Source: a virus. Taken from it: 64,000 nt of DNA. Below are positions 2,483-22,657 of this stretch, piece by piece. The first letter of the stretch is position 1. Each line of letters starts with the position of its first letter. The DNA is taken from IMG/VR virus record IMGVR_UViG_3300020156_000025, positions 25,985 to 89,984 of that record; one strand, given 5' to 3'. The translations under genes were made by a program, and so were the position numbers. The notes below the pieces were generated by a model. It did no database searches and was not told the DNA's origin. It saw only the letters and a program-made list of their open reading frames with translations.

Positions 2483-3250
2483 ATGCCCATAGACTATGAT
2501 ACGACGCTCCCGGGGGTGGTATGGCGGAATGGCCAGAAGCTCGCGACCTTGCTTGAGACCACGGGGGGTGAGGTGGTGTTCGACGACGTTGGGGTCGCTT
2601 CGGGCACGCTGGTCTATCAATGCATGTATGCGAACTCGGTCGCCCTTGTGGCTAGCTTCACCCGGCATCCCAGCTTCGCGTTCCTGAAACGGAAGAATGC
2701 CCGGATCGTGCGCGAGGAGGCCGGGATGGCGAGGGTGACGATCAATTTCGAGGGTATTCCGACGGGGGAAGAAAACGAGAACCGCAAGACCTATACGCTC
2801 CACGGGGGGACGGGAACGGAGCCGATCGAATCGCACACCCAGTTCGGGACTTTTGCAGGGAAGTGGAACGATCCCGCGACGTGGGTAAACGGTGCCCGGT
2901 TCGCCACGCAAGGGGAGGACAGGGGCAAGTTCTTGGGCTTCGTGGCCGCGCAGGGGGACGATGACCCGAATCCGAAAGCGGGGGTGCAGTCCTACTATGC
3001 GCCCACGCTGGTGTATTCGGAGGTGGAGCTGCGGTCCAAGGCGAACTCGTCGAGCATCGCGGTGAACATGAACAACCTAGGCAAGATCGACACGCCCCCC
3101 AATTCCGACGTGCTGCCGCAGGTGTCGTCGGGGAGGGACTGGCTGCTGACGGATTGCACGGTGGAGGAGGTGGGGGACGGGGTTCGGATCACCCGCCGCT
3201 GGAGATTGTCGGGACGGAACGGGTGGGACCCGGACATTTACGGAGATTGA
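2483..3250 (+). CDS. Tail protein downstream of tape measure (distal-tail type by position)
   Basis: This 255-residue protein starts 12 bp after the tape measure stop. I recognise no motif. The composition is beta-rich with many Gly, Thr and Asn and no signal peptide or membrane segment, which fits a virion structural protein. In siphophage gene order the slot after the tape measure holds distal tail or hub proteins, so a tail role is inferred from position only. Confidence 0.6.
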   Translation: MPIDYDTTLPGVVWRNGQKLATLLETTGGEVVFDDVGVASGTLVYQCMYANSVALVASFTRHPSFAFLKRKNARIVREEAGMARVTINFEGIPTGEENENRKTYTLHGGTGTEPIESHTQFGTFAGKWNDPATWVNGARFATQGEDRGKFLGFVAAQGDDDPNPKAGVQSYYAPTLVYSEVELRSKANSSSIAVNMNNLGKIDTPPNSDVLPQVSSGRDWLLTDCTVEEVGDGVRITRRWRLSGRNGWDPDIYGD

Positions 3251-3253
3251 CCT

Positions 3254-4921
3254 ATGGCCGCATCTGCAAACGTGACGCTCGGGGGGAGGACCCGGTTGAA
3301 GGGATTCAAGGTGCCGGGACAACCCGCCCTTGAAGCCGCGTTGAACCGCTTGGCTACCGAGATCAATTCGATCCCGGACGTTCAGTTCGAGGGAGGACAG
3401 GGACTGGACGTGACGGAGCACAACGGTAAGATCGTTGTAGCATTGCGCAACGGTGCGCGGGGATGGCGTCCCCGTTACGAGCCGACGTTCGTGGACGGGA
3501 AGCTGCGCATCGGGCTAGGGACGGTGGGGTTGCACGCGGACGGGAACGGGGCGGGCGGGGTGGTCGAGCCGTATTTCCCTAGGTTCGAGGGGAAGGTGCT
3601 GAACCATGCGATCCCGCCCGAGCTGCCGGTGGAGCAGATAGACGACGGGGACAACAAGATCATCCTGCGCTGCTGTCTCTACGATTCTCGGATCGAGGTG
3701 GTGTCCGCGGAGGAGGACATGGACAAGGACGTGGGGGAGTGGATTATCACGCTCGCGACCTTTACCAAGGAGGGTGCGAAGATCTCGGACCTCCGGCACC
3801 TGTTCACTTCGGACGTGCTGATTCTGGACGCGTCGGAGTCGTGCGACATCGAAGGCTCGGACGATCCGGACCCGAGCGACGATTCCGACGGCGACGATAG
3901 CGACGATAGCGACGAGCCGCCGCCGTCCGATTCGGACGAGAGCGATGATTCCGACGATAGCTCGGGGAGCGGGGACGGGTGCTGCCCGGAAATCGCGCTC
4001 GACGCTACGGTGGTGAGTCCGGCGTCGCCGTTCTGTTTCTCCAGCGGGGATTCGCCGTATCCCTACTGGGTGGCGGGGTCGGTGAGTATTTCCAAGGCGT
4101 CCACCTGCGACGGATGCGAGGAAAAGCCCGTGTCGGTGCACGTGCAGGTGGGGGACGCGAGCACCAGTGCCAACCTGTTCCCGGGCGGTCCGCCCTTCAC
4201 GTTCCTGCTTCATCCGTCGTTCGGTTCGCCGTGCGCCACGGTCCCGGTGACGGCCACCATCGCTTCCCTTACCAGTGTGGCGGGGACCTGCCCGTGCTTC
4301 GCCACTAAGTCGGTGGACATCACCCTGCCCGGTCTGGAGCCGGACTGCGAATGCTCGGACGACTCCAGCGGAAGCTCCGACGATAGCGACGGAGGGGAGC
4401 TTCTGATGATGGCCCCGCCCGGGGAGATGATGCTGATGACGGAGGGTAGCGACGACTCCGCGCTCGATGACAAGGAGGCGGTGGTCGAGTCGTCCTTGTT
4501 CCCGACGGGGTATGCGGCGATGCGTTGCGTGGAGTCGCCGGAGACGTGGTTCACCGACACGTTCCGGGTGGAAATCACGGGGCGCGTCACGTTGCACCGG
4601 ATCGATGCAATGTTCGCCGACGTGTGCGATCCCGGGACGATCCGCGTTGTTTCCGCCGTGCCCGACTTGCCGCGACCTGTGGGATGTGTTGCACGCGAAT
4701 TCCCGCCGATGCACTGGAGTGTCTTGCTGAACCGCATGGTGCCGTCCTCGGAGGAGGGGGCGCATGTCGTGGTGCGCTGCGGATGGTTCTTGCGCCCGCG
4801 CAGCGTCATGGTCACGGTGGCCGGAATCCGCAAGGGCCGTTCGGGGCAGCGATTCGTGCCGAGGTCCAAGGAGGAATTCGACCGGAGCCAGGCGTTCTGG
4901 TCACAGCTCAAGGACCGATGA
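3254..4921 (+). CDS. Virion-associated protein with Ser-Asp repeats
   Basis: A 555-residue protein. The N-terminal ~190 residues look like a folded beta-rich domain. Residues ~195-240 are a low-complexity stretch of Ser-Asp and Asp-Asp-Ser units, followed by a cysteine-rich domain (motifs GCC, CDGCEE, CPC, CEC), a second shorter Ser-Asp stretch near residue 370, and a C-terminal domain of ~140 residues. The acidic linkers probably separate folded modules in a tail-tip or fibre-like protein. Its stop overlaps the start of the next gene. Family not recognised; virion role inferred from place and architecture. Confidence 0.55.
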   Translation: MAASANVTLGGRTRLKGFKVPGQPALEAALNRLATEINSIPDVQFEGGQGLDVTEHNGKIVVALRNGARGWRPRYEPTFVDGKLRIGLGTVGLHADGNGAGGVVEPYFPRFEGKVLNHAIPPELPVEQIDDGDNKIILRCCLYDSRIEVVSAEEDMDKDVGEWIITLATFTKEGAKISDLRHLFTSDVLILDASESCDIEGSDDPDPSDDSDGDDSDDSDEPPPSDSDESDDSDDSSGSGDGCCPEIALDATVVSPASPFCFSSGDSPYPYWVAGSVSISKASTCDGCEEKPVSVHVQVGDASTSANLFPGGPPFTFLLHPSFGSPCATVPVTATIASLTSVAGTCPCFATKSVDITLPGLEPDCECSDDSSGSSDDSDGGELLMMAPPGEMMLMTEGSDDSALDDKEAVVESSLFPTGYAAMRCVESPETWFTDTFRVEITGRVTLHRIDAMFADVCDPGTIRVVSAVPDLPRPVGCVAREFPPMHWSVLLNRMVPSSEEGAHVVVRCGWFLRPRSVMVTVAGIRKGRSGQRFVPRSKEEFDRSQAFWSQLKDR

Positions 4922-18605: not shown

Positions 18606-18636
18606 CGCCCGGTTCCCTTTGGCGGGGAACCGGGCG
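18606..18636 (-). terminator. Perfect 12-bp hairpin with T-run on the minus strand
   Basis: CGCCCGGTTCCC (18606-18617) pairs perfectly with GGGAACCGGGCG (18625-18636). No T-run follows on the + strand, but on the minus strand the hairpin is followed by TTTTGTCTTT, so it reads as an intrinsic terminator for leftward transcription. The rest of the gene-free stretch 18548-18809 holds only the weak promoter at 18763. Confidence 0.45.
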
Positions 18637-18809: not shown

Positions 18810-19265
18810 ATGAGAAAAACCGATTCTCGGGGAAAGCTGCCCTCCCCGGCGCAATTGCGGGCACGCGCGTGGAGAAAGAAGGCGGAGGGGTGGGCGGAGT
18901 GGCTCGATCCGGACGAGCATGCCGTGGCGATGCACGTGCACAATTGCACGGCGGGGATGACGTGCGACGCGTCGGGAATCCTCTGTCCGCACCATTTCAC
19001 GGAGGGGTTGTTTTACCATGACACGCTGATCGTGCATCCGCCGCGGATCGCGGGGTTGTGCTGGGAACGGGTGAGGGGGTTGCTGGAGACGCTGGTGCGG
19101 AGGGGGGCGCTGCACATGGAGGAGGCGGGGGACAGGGACGGGACGCATTTCTGGTTCACGCTGCGATACGGATGGAAGCCGGGGAAACGGGAACAGAAGA
19201 GGATCGCCCTTGCACGTGCGCTGGAGCGCGAAGCTTACGGGGAGAAAGGAGAAGGGGAGCGATGA
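18810..19265 (+). CDS. Hypothetical protein upstream of the replication initiator
   Basis: 151 residues. Basic N-terminus (KLPSPAQLRARAWRKKAEG), then a middle with paired Cys and His (VHNCTAGMTC, ILCPHHF) that could bind a metal, and a winged-helix-like RGLLETLVRRGALHMEE segment with a wing-like FWFTLRYG. It overlaps the initiator gene by 4 bp, so it is probably a replication accessory or regulatory DNA-binding protein. Not recognised as a family. Confidence 0.55.
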   Translation: MRKTDSRGKLPSPAQLRARAWRKKAEGWAEWLDPDEHAVAMHVHNCTAGMTCDASGILCPHHFTEGLFYHDTLIVHPPRIAGLCWERVRGLLETLVRRGALHMEEAGDRDGTHFWFTLRYGWKPGKREQKRIALARALEREAYGEKGEGER

Positions 19266-20635
19266 TCGCGGAATTCGAGACCAAGGAGGAGGAGCAGGCG
19301 TATTTCGGATCGTTCTACAGATACAAGCTGTGGAGCATGCGGATGATCCGCGACTGGTGGCCGCTGCTGACGAACTCGCAGAGGATCGTGCTGACCTTCG
19401 TGTTCGACCGCACGATCGGGTGGCGGAAGAGATGGGAGCAGGTGACGTTGCACCACCTGACCCACGGGGTGGAGTCGGAGGACGGGAAGGAATGGATCGG
19501 GGGAACGGGGTTGTCGAAACCGACCCTGATCGAGGCGATGCGGGGGTTGCGGGACATGGGGTTGATACTGGACCGGTGGAACCCGCAGAGGCAGCGCAAC
19601 GAAATCTGCATCGAACTGGAATGGAACCTCGTGGAAGGGGAAACGATCGAAACGAGCCGACATATGGGAGGATTACCGGAACCGAAGAGAGGGCACCGCG
19701 GGGGGCGCGGGGCGGGGAATTTTGCAAACCGTGCAAAGCCCGGAAGGGGGGAAGGGGAGGTCCCGGAAGGGGGGGAGGGTGTAAAGAAACCTTACCCTGC
19801 GGGTGTAAAGAAACTTTACCCTAATAATAAGAAAGGGAAAAACCATAGGTTGAATGCTACGCATTCAACGGGTTCCCCGGGGGAAGGGGAGGCTCCGGGG
19901 ACGGAGGGGGAGACCCCTGCCGATGCCGATGCAGCACCCGCTGCCGCCCTTGCCGATGTCGCCGCATCCGCTCTTGCCCGCACGCGGGAACGCCGGGAGG
20001 CGAAAAAGGGGAAGGGAGGAGCCGCGGGGATCGCGGCGGTGTGGGACGACGCGGTGCGTGCCGCCTTGCCCGATGCGCCGCGGGTGGCGGTGACGAAGGC
20101 GGACGTGGCAATCCTCGGGAAATATGCCCGCCGTTTCGCTGCCGCGAATCCCGCGACGCCGTTCGCGGAATACGTGGGGTGGTGCGTAGGGTGGTGGGCG
20201 GTGATCCGCGCGCAGGAGTTCGGGTGGATGCGGGACGGGGGGCCGGAGTTGCCGTCGATCCGCTTTCTCGTGAAGTTCTCGGACCGGTTCGAGCAATGCC
20301 ACGCGCACCGCGCCGCCCTTGAGCAGAGGGCCGCGATGACGGCGAGGGAACTGGAGATCGACCGCAGGGTGCGGAGGGGGCAGACGCGGGACGCCGCGGA
20401 GCTGGAGGTGGACAAGGTGGACGCGCTGCGCCGGGAGCAGCGGAAGTTGGAGGATGCGCGGAGGGCGCTGGCGCAGGAGCGCAGGATGGGGGAGGCGGCG
20501 TCGGCCCGGAGAGCGGAGGCGGAACGGCGGAAGGCGGAACTGCGGGAACGCCGGGAACGCATCGACGTTGCCCGCCGCCGCGCCGCGGAATCGCCCGATC
20601 CGTCCGGGGCCGGGGGCTTCGGAACGTGGGATTAG
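19262..20635 (+). CDS. Phage replication initiator, lambda O-like
   Basis: 457 residues. The N-terminal domain (residues ~30-120) is a winged helix of the replication-protein-O type: LTNSQRIVLTFVFDRTIGW, then TGLSKPTLIEAMRGLRDMGLI. A low-complexity linker (~145-240) separates it from a charged helical C-terminal region of ~180 residues with long Arg/Glu/Ala helices. The DNA of the linker carries paired 22-bp palindromic repeats, an A+T-rich run and a perfect hairpin (19777-19869), the same arrangement as the lambda origin inside gene O. The C-terminal part presumably recruits the helicase loader encoded next. Confidence 0.75.
   Translation: MIAEFETKEEEQAYFGSFYRYKLWSMRMIRDWWPLLTNSQRIVLTFVFDRTIGWRKRWEQVTLHHLTHGVESEDGKEWIGGTGLSKPTLIEAMRGLRDMGLILDRWNPQRQRNEICIELEWNLVEGETIETSRHMGGLPEPKRGHRGGRGAGNFANRAKPGRGEGEVPEGGEGVKKPYPAGVKKLYPNNKKGKNHRLNATHSTGSPGEGEAPGTEGETPADADAAPAAALADVAASALARTRERREAKKGKGGAAGIAAVWDDAVRAALPDAPRVAVTKADVAILGKYARRFAAANPATPFAEYVGWCVGWWAVIRAQEFGWMRDGGPELPSIRFLVKFSDRFEQCHAHRAALEQRAAMTARELEIDRRVRRGQTRDAAELEVDKVDALRREQRKLEDARRALAQERRMGEAASARRAEAERRKAELRERRERIDVARRRAAESPDPSGAGGFGTWD
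19720..19738 (+). repeat. Dyad repeat copy inside the initiator gene
   Basis: TTTTGCA-AACCG-TGCAAAG, 38 bp upstream of the origin-like repeats and at the start of the interdomain linker. Confidence 0.75.
19777..19869 (+). other. Candidate replication origin inside the initiator gene
   Basis: Two near-identical 22-bp units, GGGTGTAAAG-AAAC(C/T)TTACCCT, at 19777-19798 and 19801-19822, 24 bp apart and each nearly palindromic. They are followed by an A+T-rich stretch (19820-19848) that is unusual for this GC-rich genome and by a perfect stem-loop, GTTGAATGC-TAC-GCATTCAAC, at 19849-19869. This copies the layout of the lambda origin (iterons, then A+T-rich region, within gene O). In-phase coding is kept (GVKKPYP / GVKKLYP). 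Confidence 0.65.
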
Positions 20636-20720: not shown

Positions 20721-21377
20721 ATGATCGAACCGACCGAACCGAACGAAACGACGAAGCCATTGGCCGGACCGCGCAACCTGCTGCCGGATTCGGACGTGGA
20801 GAAGATGCTGGAGAACGCGGGAATCCCGCGCCGCTGGAGGGGGAAGGAGTGCACGCTGGCGGGGCTCGGGACGGAGCCCGCGAAACTGCTGCGCCAGTGG
20901 CTGGAGGGAGGGGAGCACCGGGAGGTGACGGGGAGGGTGCTGGACGTGGGGCAGGACTCGCGCGAATCGCTGGACCTGTGCATGCGGCTGGCACGGGGGA
21001 TGGTGCTGACCGGGTGCGGGGTGCGGGTAATGTCCATCGTCGCCTTGCTCGACCTGATACAGGGAGGGGAGGACGAGAGGGGGAGGACGATGGCGGAGCT
21101 GCTGAACGTGTCGTGGTTGATGGTGCTGGGGGTGATCGACGCGTGGTCGCCGGAGAACGCGCCGTTCAAGGGGGAGGACAAGTTGCGGCTGGACTGGTTC
21201 ATGCGCCGCTGGCTGATCGACGGGAGGAACCTGATCTTGCAGGGGGACAGGGCGATGGCGGAGGACCGGTTCTGGTCGCAGGGGCTGCGCTCGCTGGCGA
21301 ACGGGGCGCTGGTGCTGCCGCCCGTCTTTCCCCCTCGGAACGACTCCCGCACCTTTCACGATACCGCACCTAGATGA
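20721..21377 (+). CDS. DnaC-like helicase loader without a P-loop (candidate)
   Basis: 218 residues between an O-type initiator and a DnaB-type helicase. The order of segments resembles DnaC-like loaders: IPRRWRGKECTL at the start, a strand-helix unit GRVLDVGQDSRESLDL where the Walker A loop should be, then GVRVMSIVALLDLIQ, and a late DRFWSQGLRSL helix like the sensor/arginine-finger end. The GxxGxGKT loop itself is absent. It may be a non-hydrolysing loader partner. The assignment rests on context plus weak pattern likeness. Confidence 0.45.
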   Translation: MIEPTEPNETTKPLAGPRNLLPDSDVEKMLENAGIPRRWRGKECTLAGLGTEPAKLLRQWLEGGEHREVTGRVLDVGQDSRESLDLCMRLARGMVLTGCGVRVMSIVALLDLIQGGEDERGRTMAELLNVSWLMVLGVIDAWSPENAPFKGEDKLRLDWFMRRWLIDGRNLILQGDRAMAEDRFWSQGLRSLANGALVLPPVFPPRNDSRTFHDTAPR

Positions 21378-22657
21378 GCACGCTCGGGAATCAATTCCTG
21401 CGCGCGGTGGTGGATGCGCAGGACACGGCGGCTTTCCGGCGGACGCAACGGCGTCTGTTCGTGGAGGCGGAGGTGCCGGTGTATGACGCGGTGATGGCGC
21501 ACGTGATGGCGCACGGAAGGGTGCCGTCGCTGTCGGCGCTGTCGGTGGCGGGGGTGACGCTGCCGGAGGCGAGGCACGACGAGCCGGTGTCGTGGTTCGC
21601 GGAACGTCTCAGGAACCGGGCGGCGTGGGGGGCGATGAACGAGAGGCACCCGGCGTTCGTGCAGGCGATGCGCGACAAGGACGTGGTGCAGGCGGAGGCC
21701 GTCGCCGCGGAGATGCTGGCGGAGGCGCGCGCGATGCTCGGGGCCGGGGGGTCGTATTCGTCGTTCGCGGCGGAGGCGGAGGCGATCGGGGCGCTCTACC
21801 ATTCGGCCAAGATGCACACGGGGTTGATGGGGGTGACGATGCGCTGGCCGACGCTGAACGCGCTGACCGACGGGGCGCAAGGGGGGGACGTGATCGCGCT
21901 GGTCGGGAGGCCGGGGGAGGGGAAGTCGTGGAACTTGCAGGAACTCGCCCTTGCCGCGCATGAGGACGGGTTGGAGACGGCGGTGGTTTCGATGGAGATG
22001 GGCGTGCGGCAGTTGTGCCGACGCATGATCGCGCGCAAGATCGGGGCGAATCCGCGGGACATCAAACGGGGAACGCTGCCGCACTGGGCGGAGGGGGATT
22101 TGTTCGGGGCCATCGCGGAGTTGACCGATGCCGCCCCGATGCACGTGCTGGCGGGGGACATGCAGAAGGAGGTGGGGGGAATCGAGAGCATGCTGGACGA
22201 CCGCAACGTGTCCGCCCTCTACGTGGACGCGGCTTACCTGCTGTCGCCGTCGGCGAGGATGTCGAACGGGGTGTCGAAGTGGGAGACCATCGGGCAGGTG
22301 ATCAAGGAATTGAAGCAGCTTGCGGTGAGGAGGGACATCCCGGTGTTCATCACGGTGCAGTTCAACCGGAACCAGAAACGCAAGGCGTCCCGGGAAATGG
22401 ACCTCGGGGACATCGCGGGTTCGGACTCGATCCCGCAGGACTGCTCGATAGTGGTGGGTATCAGGCGGGGACCGGCACCGTTCGACGAGGTGATCCGGGA
22501 GCATCACGTGCTCAAGAACCGGGAGGGGGATGCGGGGAAATACAACGTCAATTTCCGCTTCCAGCCGGTGAATTTCGACGAGGTGGAACTGGAGGTGACG
22601 GAGAACGGGAACGCTTCGGCGGGAGCGCCGTCGGCATCGACCGACTGGATGGTGTAG
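21374..22657 (+). CDS. DnaB-like replicative helicase
   Basis: 427 residues. The C-terminal RecA-fold has Walker A GRPGEGKS at 178-185, a conserved SMEM segment after it, Walker B-like hydrophobic strand (VSALYVDAAYLL), and the DnaB motif region DIAGSDSIPQDCSIVVGI. The N-terminal ~140 residues are helical, as in DnaB primase-binding domains. Located between loader and polymerase. The start overlaps the preceding stop by 4 bp. Confidence 0.85.
   Translation: MSTLGNQFLRAVVDAQDTAAFRRTQRRLFVEAEVPVYDAVMAHVMAHGRVPSLSALSVAGVTLPEARHDEPVSWFAERLRNRAAWGAMNERHPAFVQAMRDKDVVQAEAVAAEMLAEARAMLGAGGSYSSFAAEAEAIGALYHSAKMHTGLMGVTMRWPTLNALTDGAQGGDVIALVGRPGEGKSWNLQELALAAHEDGLETAVVSMEMGVRQLCRRMIARKIGANPRDIKRGTLPHWAEGDLFGAIAELTDAAPMHVLAGDMQKEVGGIESMLDDRNVSALYVDAAYLLSPSARMSNGVSKWETIGQVIKELKQLAVRRDIPVFITVQFNRNQKRKASREMDLGDIAGSDSIPQDCSIVVGIRRGPAPFDEVIREHHVLKNREGDAGKYNVNFRFQPVNFDEVELEVTENGNASAGAPSASTDWMV

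Follow-up and report, generated by a model that had tools for sequence, protein, structure and literature searches.

The question raised by this locus is whether two short repeats, an A+T-rich stretch and a stem-loop that lie inside the coding sequence of a single gene mark the place where an uncultivated phage starts to replicate its DNA, or whether some or all of them have another explanation. We analysed the window, that is, the whole stretch of 64,000 nucleotides, and scanned in addition the 89,984-bp virus record of which it is part. Judging from the sequence of this phage and of its relatives, positions 19777-19869 are very probably an initiator-encoded, lambda-type theta replication origin.

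The DNA elements at 19777-19869

The locus is composed of the following elements:

19777-19798, plus strand: iteron 1, predicted initiator-binding site, GGGTGTAAAGAAACCTTACCCT, a direct repeat with an internal inverted repeat around AAA
19801-19822, plus strand: iteron 2, predicted initiator-binding site on the same basis, GGGTGTAAAGAAACTTTACCCT, resembling the iterons of the relative L047
19823-19848, no strand: A+T-rich tract of 26 bp with 27% G+C, predicted unwinding element
19849-19869, no strand: stem-loop GTTGAATGC-TAC-GCATTCAAC, with a perfect stem of 9 bp and TAC as the loop, predicted origin element of single-strand or cruciform form

The initial annotation had described two 22-bp near-palindromic units 24 bp apart, an A+T-rich stretch and a perfect 9-bp stem-loop, and all of this was borne out. 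The two iterons, of 22 bp each and 24 bp apart from start to start, are identical at 21 of 22 positions; iteron 2 contains the perfect 6-bp inverted repeat GTAAAG-AAA-CTTTAC, iteron 1 has 5/6 of it, and the term near-palindromic is fair because the GGG and CCC ends can pair when slipped by one base. The A+T-rich tract stands out sharply from the gene that contains it, which has 66% G+C.

The observation of repeat, tract and stem-loop is correct and goes beyond chance. When the codon order of the initiator gene was shuffled 20,000 times, no shuffle matched the observed repeat score (18-30 bp spacing), and synonymous-codon shuffles gave a p value of only 0.017 because the iteron repeat is partly a peptide repeat in the window. 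Across the whole contig, scanned in pieces, no direct repeat spaced at 18-36 bp scores better than the iteron pair, only 0.027% of 26-bp stretches reach the A+T content of the tract, and perfect hairpins of at least 9 bp number three, the stem-loop among them; three rare features share 93 bp of a 90-kb contig. The stem-loop, which begins at +26 after the iterons, has a codon-shuffle p of 0.002, and the 78-nt stretch 19823-19900 folds with a z of about -3.9 on both strands. No further copy of the iteron pattern was found in the contig at up to 3 mismatches. We also considered the stem-loop as a mobile REP-like palindrome and rejected this, the 19-mer core being absent from IMG/VR and present in 8 unrelated genomes with a single copy each.

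Two properties of the locus count against reading it as an origin. Cumulative GC skew climbs along the whole contig and makes no turn at 19777-19869, although skew is uninformative here, nearly all genes being on one strand. The iterons, moreover, are only two, a number that would be enough in principle because the minimal unwinding unit of lambda consists of two iterons and the A+T tract (Dodson 1986; Wickner and McKenney 1987, as cited in PMC7466680).

The initiator protein and the replication module

The gene containing these elements opens a replication module:

19262-20635, plus strand: replication initiator gene, 457 aa, so assigned from its AlphaFold profile, the lambda O N-domain profile match, PHROG matches in relatives and synteny
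20721-21377, plus strand: DnaC-fold AAA+ helicase loader, 218 aa, without Walker A, from a model with pLDDT 80 and its fold matches
21374-22657, plus strand: DnaB replicative helicase, 427 aa (DnaB_C E 9e-27; PHROG DnaB-like helicase E 4e-48)
22675 (putative start)-25596, plus strand: family-A DNA polymerase with 3'-5' exonuclease domain (DNA_pol_A E 8e-61; DNA_pol_A_exo1 E 1e-12)

According to the AlphaFold confidence, the initiator has a winged-helix N-domain (aa 4-124), a disordered linker (aa 125-223) and a helical C-domain (aa 225-443). The iterons correspond to aa 172-187 of the protein and the stem-loop to aa 196-203, which puts the elements in the middle of the predicted linker, the linker being also where the initial annotation had placed them. 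Its further description of the gene as O-like also stands: a 14-member initiator family profile aligns with residues 29-118 of lambda O, in the N-domain (hhalign E 1.7e-5, probability 79%), the initiators of several relatives match PHROG "replication initiation O-like" families, and the gene precedes those for the loader, DnaB and the polymerase. Counting against the origin, the window initiator alone matched no Pfam or PHROG family. It had no match to Phage_rep_O (PF04492), for which the curated cut-off is 28.7 bits and the relatives HJ05 and Shewanella Y11 score 24.0 and 29.1, and RepA_N (PF06970) matched neither the window protein nor the 14 aligned proteins; since the window initiator lies below the curated cut-offs of both, we call it O-like and file it in neither family. 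The fold search with the whole initiator gave generic winged-helix matches only. For the N-domain, the nearest solved folds include the regulators CodY, MarR and SarX, and the matches also include RepA_N initiators (4pql, 5kbj) and DnaD, with Z 7-8; by themselves, these matches indicate fold class only.

The 218-aa loader gene has no sequence match to a known family, and it was its model that pointed to DnaC: the best solved matches are two DnaC proteins, that of E. coli, as seen in the DnaBC complex (Z 14.7), and that of Aquifex (Z 14.6), which align over 157-180 residues; IstB and DnaA come next. In contrast to the E. coli and Aquifex proteins, which it resembles in fold, the window loader lacks Walker A (GxxxxGK[ST]; GKT/GKS), as do 10 of the 11 other aligned loaders, the sole exception being that of L056 (GPAGVGKT), from a more distant module. 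Because of this absence, we file the protein as DnaC-fold and not as an intact DnaC-type loader, and it is probably ATP-independent, to judge from its sequence.

Further along the window there are RecA, RNase H and a weak RuvC match, and a primase-like frame was read by eye near 27.2-28.2 kb. The polymerase has at its N-terminus (residues 23-165) a weak UDG-like match of 21.5 bits, against a Pfam cut-off of 24.3, and the annotation of Pseudomonas phage SM1 has one too. Ahead of the initiator operon, the gap contains a perfect 12-bp stem at 18606-18636, followed by TTTTGTCTTT on the minus strand; by its sequence, this is a good predicted terminator for leftward transcription, and it may hint at an antisense RNA, reminiscent of lambda oop, that is transcribed from the initiator region.

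The order initiator, loader, DnaB is common to Rhizobium, Pseudomonas, Rhodobacter, Vibrio and Stenotrophomonas phages, interrupted in some relatives by one or more small genes, and the module of Aeromonas HJ05 has a similar layout.

Iterons in related phages

As lone protein queries, the window initiator and DnaB returned no IMG/VR relatives and no plasmid relatives. Relatives were recovered only with alignments as queries, in sequence searches that started from the initiator or DnaB, and they are not an unbiased sample. Their initiators are 15-31% identical to that of the window, and most of them have iterons of their own at the same linker position: three copies of GGGGGGAAAGAAATTTACCCC 22/23 bp apart in L047, three copies of GGGGCGAAAACGCCCC 23/24 bp apart in L022, TCCAAAATTTGGCACAC at 22 bp in SM1, TGGGACACTGGTGTCC at 23 bp in HJ05, GGTGCAGATATGCACC at 23 bp in RcZahn, CCTGACAAAATGTCAGG at 22 bp in VH2, and repeats with 23-bp spacing in L051. 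The spacing is mostly 22-24 bp and often out of reading frame; the palindromes GGGACAnnnTGTCCC of L338C/I4, about 33 bp apart, are an exception and count against the origin.

Codon-shuffle p values were 0.003-0.02 in most initiators of the first tested set, some of which are close kin of each other, and lambda O was detected as a positive control in the same test; most of the genes examined later agreed, and the iterons of the TM16 initiator gave 0.11. In a second, later set analysed by the same method, iterons were found in all 5 recognisable initiators, four with a spacing of 21-23 bp and one of 33 bp, with p = 0.0125 for one and values at the test floor for the other four. A search of the RcTiptonus and RcMenchie initiators found no iterons, and for RcTiptonus this also weighs against the origin, as does the want of an intact initiator in L046. 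In the latter, a close DnaB relative, the N-terminal part of the initiator at 2900-4619 is broken by stops and no iterons are present, either through an assembly fault or because the gene has decayed.

A motif common to the window iterons and all relatives was rejected, since it is recognisable in L047 only, whose iterons match iteron 2 of the window at 16 of 22 positions (p = 0.007). Repeats lost while the protein is kept was the pattern that the initial annotation had named as contrary to its proposal, and the relatives display a different one, their iterons recurring at the same linker position in most cases. Iteron sequence thus turns over and the layout stays, as far as these alignments indicate.

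Linker iterons 35 bp and 33 bp apart, or three DNA turns, are found in L050 (3999-5435) and L073 (4044-4982), as in L338C/I4, and the spacing seems to switch by whole DNA turns. In L058 (3422-4873), a different initiator gene carries 32-bp exact repeats 23 bp apart and then a 15-bp perfect hairpin, GTCGCAAAATAGGAC.

A+T-rich tracts and stem-loops in related phages

In 17 of 19 cases the 40 nt that follow the last iteron exceed the gene itself in A+T content (Wilcoxon p = 5e-5). Perfect hairpins are enriched in the 120 nt after the iterons (Fisher p = 3e-5 in 18 genes, and 4e-4 without the window), and in the second set stems of at least 7 bp were present in 2 of 5 initiators, with a chance probability of 0.009, the hairpin statistics as a whole covering a few dozen genes. 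Hairpins topped by GC/GC downstream of the iterons number 11 against 1.5 expected, in a class that was defined after seeing the data. The inverted repeat is at +42 to +58 in several relatives, compared with +26 in the window. We rejected conservation of the stem-loop across all relatives: a strong downstream hairpin is missing in about half of them, the closest ones, L047 and L048, included, and this is a further point against the origin. Among the three SM1-type phages, three double changes leave the hairpin intact, in a comparison in which slid controls fail, which is suggestive of conservation and falls short of proof; the TAC loop is common to the window and two of these three phages.

Comparison with lambda and with RepA_N plasmids

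The initial annotation had proposed that the locus copies the arrangement of the lambda origin with different sequences, and in the annotated lambda genome (J02459) the parts do follow one another in the same way: O contains four palindromic iterons, then 40 nt with 78% A+T, and, from +43, an interrupted palindrome of 28 bp. In both phages the origin, a predicted one in the window, lies inside the initiator linker, the palindromic iterons converge on an A-tract, have G/C-rich ends and are 20-24 bp apart, the A+T tract comes next with an inverted repeat beyond it, and the N-terminal domains of the initiators are related. They differ in that lambda has four 18-bp iterons and the window two of 22 bp with unrelated sequence, and in that the window phage is G+C-rich, of at least 90 kb, and has its own DnaB and polymerase, with a DnaC-fold protein without P-loop in place of lambda P as loader. 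By sequence, the element has every testable architectural feature of a lambda-type origin, namely the linker location, palindromic repeats 20-24 bp apart, the adjoining A+T tract and the inverted repeat beyond.

Much the same is found in RepA_N plasmids (pSK41 and others), where the origin is central in rep and encodes a dispensable linker, and where semi-palindromic iterons have inverted repeats converging on poly-A (PMC5703833, PMC7145576). These plasmids are like the window in the origin within rep, the winged-helix N-domain and the semi-palindromic iterons, and solved RepA folds are among the matches of the window protein, whereas the latter has no PF06970 match and is followed by its own loader and DnaB.

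Further parallels are Rhizobium L338C/I4, Pseudomonas SM1, Aeromonas HJ05, Vibrio VH2 and Rhodobacter RcZahn, which share with the window the gene order, the linker iterons, the A+T tract and, in some, the stem-loop, and which differ from it in their unrelated iteron sequences and, for L338C/I4, in the wider spacing. The records of these phages have no origin annotated, our literature search returned no paper describing origins in the relative phages, and the relevant passages in the texts on RcTiptonus and DLP3 mention none.

Other explanations for the elements

The alternative that survives best concerns only the stem-loop, which would lie outside the origin and terminate minus-strand antisense transcription. 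In the minus-strand scan it does come up as terminator-like, a T-run following some 6 bases past the stem, and the region is one in which a far better minus-strand terminator is present, at 18636-18606. Only four of its nine stem pairs, however, are G-C, its tail is displaced, the counterpart in SM1 is even weaker, the A-rich tracts ahead of the stem, which are needed for melting, yield T-runs on the opposite strand by themselves, and in lambda an inverted repeat occupies the corresponding position. We therefore consider a terminator unlikely.

It is less likely still, and indeed very improbable, that the repeats are operator sites through which the initiator only represses its own operon, with replication starting elsewhere. 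Winged-helix proteins commonly bind palindromes, regulators are among the nearest solved folds, and iteron systems often also autoregulate. The sites, on the other hand, are 515 bp inside the gene rather than at a promoter, the A+T tract and the inverted repeat recur beside the iterons, the gene is fixed ahead of the loader and DnaB across relatives, and the proven lambda origin is at the same place.

The least credible idea is that of a duplicated disordered protein motif, the peptide feature GVKKPYPAGVKKLYP, with the DNA repeat as a by-product: the 24-bp period is in frame in the window and the excess over synonymous shuffles is the weaker one, but the repeats of SM1 (22 bp), HJ05, RcZahn and L051 (23 bp) and L022 and L047 (22-24 bp) span different frames and unrelated peptides, a peptide motif would have no use for the palindromic form of the units, and, since many spacings are not multiples of three, the iteron copies encode different peptides and the repeat is therefore kept as DNA, not as peptide.

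Proposed mechanism

For the initiator-encoded origin, we infer initiator binding, melting, loading, direction and the role of the stem-loop as follows. Dimers of the winged-helix N-domain of the initiator would bind the two 22-bp palindromic iterons, which the 24-bp repeat would set about two DNA turns apart, and the resulting complex would melt the adjoining A+T tract at 19823-19848. The C-domain of the initiator, together with the DnaC-fold loader, would then load the DnaB that the phage itself encodes onto the opened strand, and the phage primase and the family-A polymerase would carry synthesis on from there in theta mode. The stem-loop, which borders the A+T tract on its far side, may fold when the strands part, and may mark the start for the helicase or the primase.

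A wider and more tentative reading, which we regard as possible and on balance doubtful, is that large tailed phages share an in-gene origin cassette of palindromic iterons, about 40 bp of A+T-rich DNA and a stem-loop near +26 to +58, the letters of which would turn over with the DNA-recognition domain of the initiator. In such a cassette the stem-loop would be a real single-strand start signal, for helicase loading or priming, overlooked in lambda too, and the P-loop-less DnaC-fold protein would load DnaB without ATP.

Biological meaning

In summary, the arrangement itself is known from lambda-type origins and from RepA_N plasmids, and what is new is this member, the persistence of the layout beyond that of the sequence in a wide group of phages, and a DnaC-fold loader that has no P-loop. 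For the uncultivated phage, the result is a predicted replication start point, obtained from sequence alone. For the many unannotated siphophages of 80-110 kb, it provides a rule for finding origins: the linker of the gene two before DnaB, and in it palindromes 22-24 bp apart. The inverted repeat beyond the A+T tract, in lambda too, and the P-loop-less loader now become testable questions, and, given that the origin sites change fully while their spacing and order stay, these phages offer a natural data set on the co-evolution of an initiator and its site, with one written inside the other.
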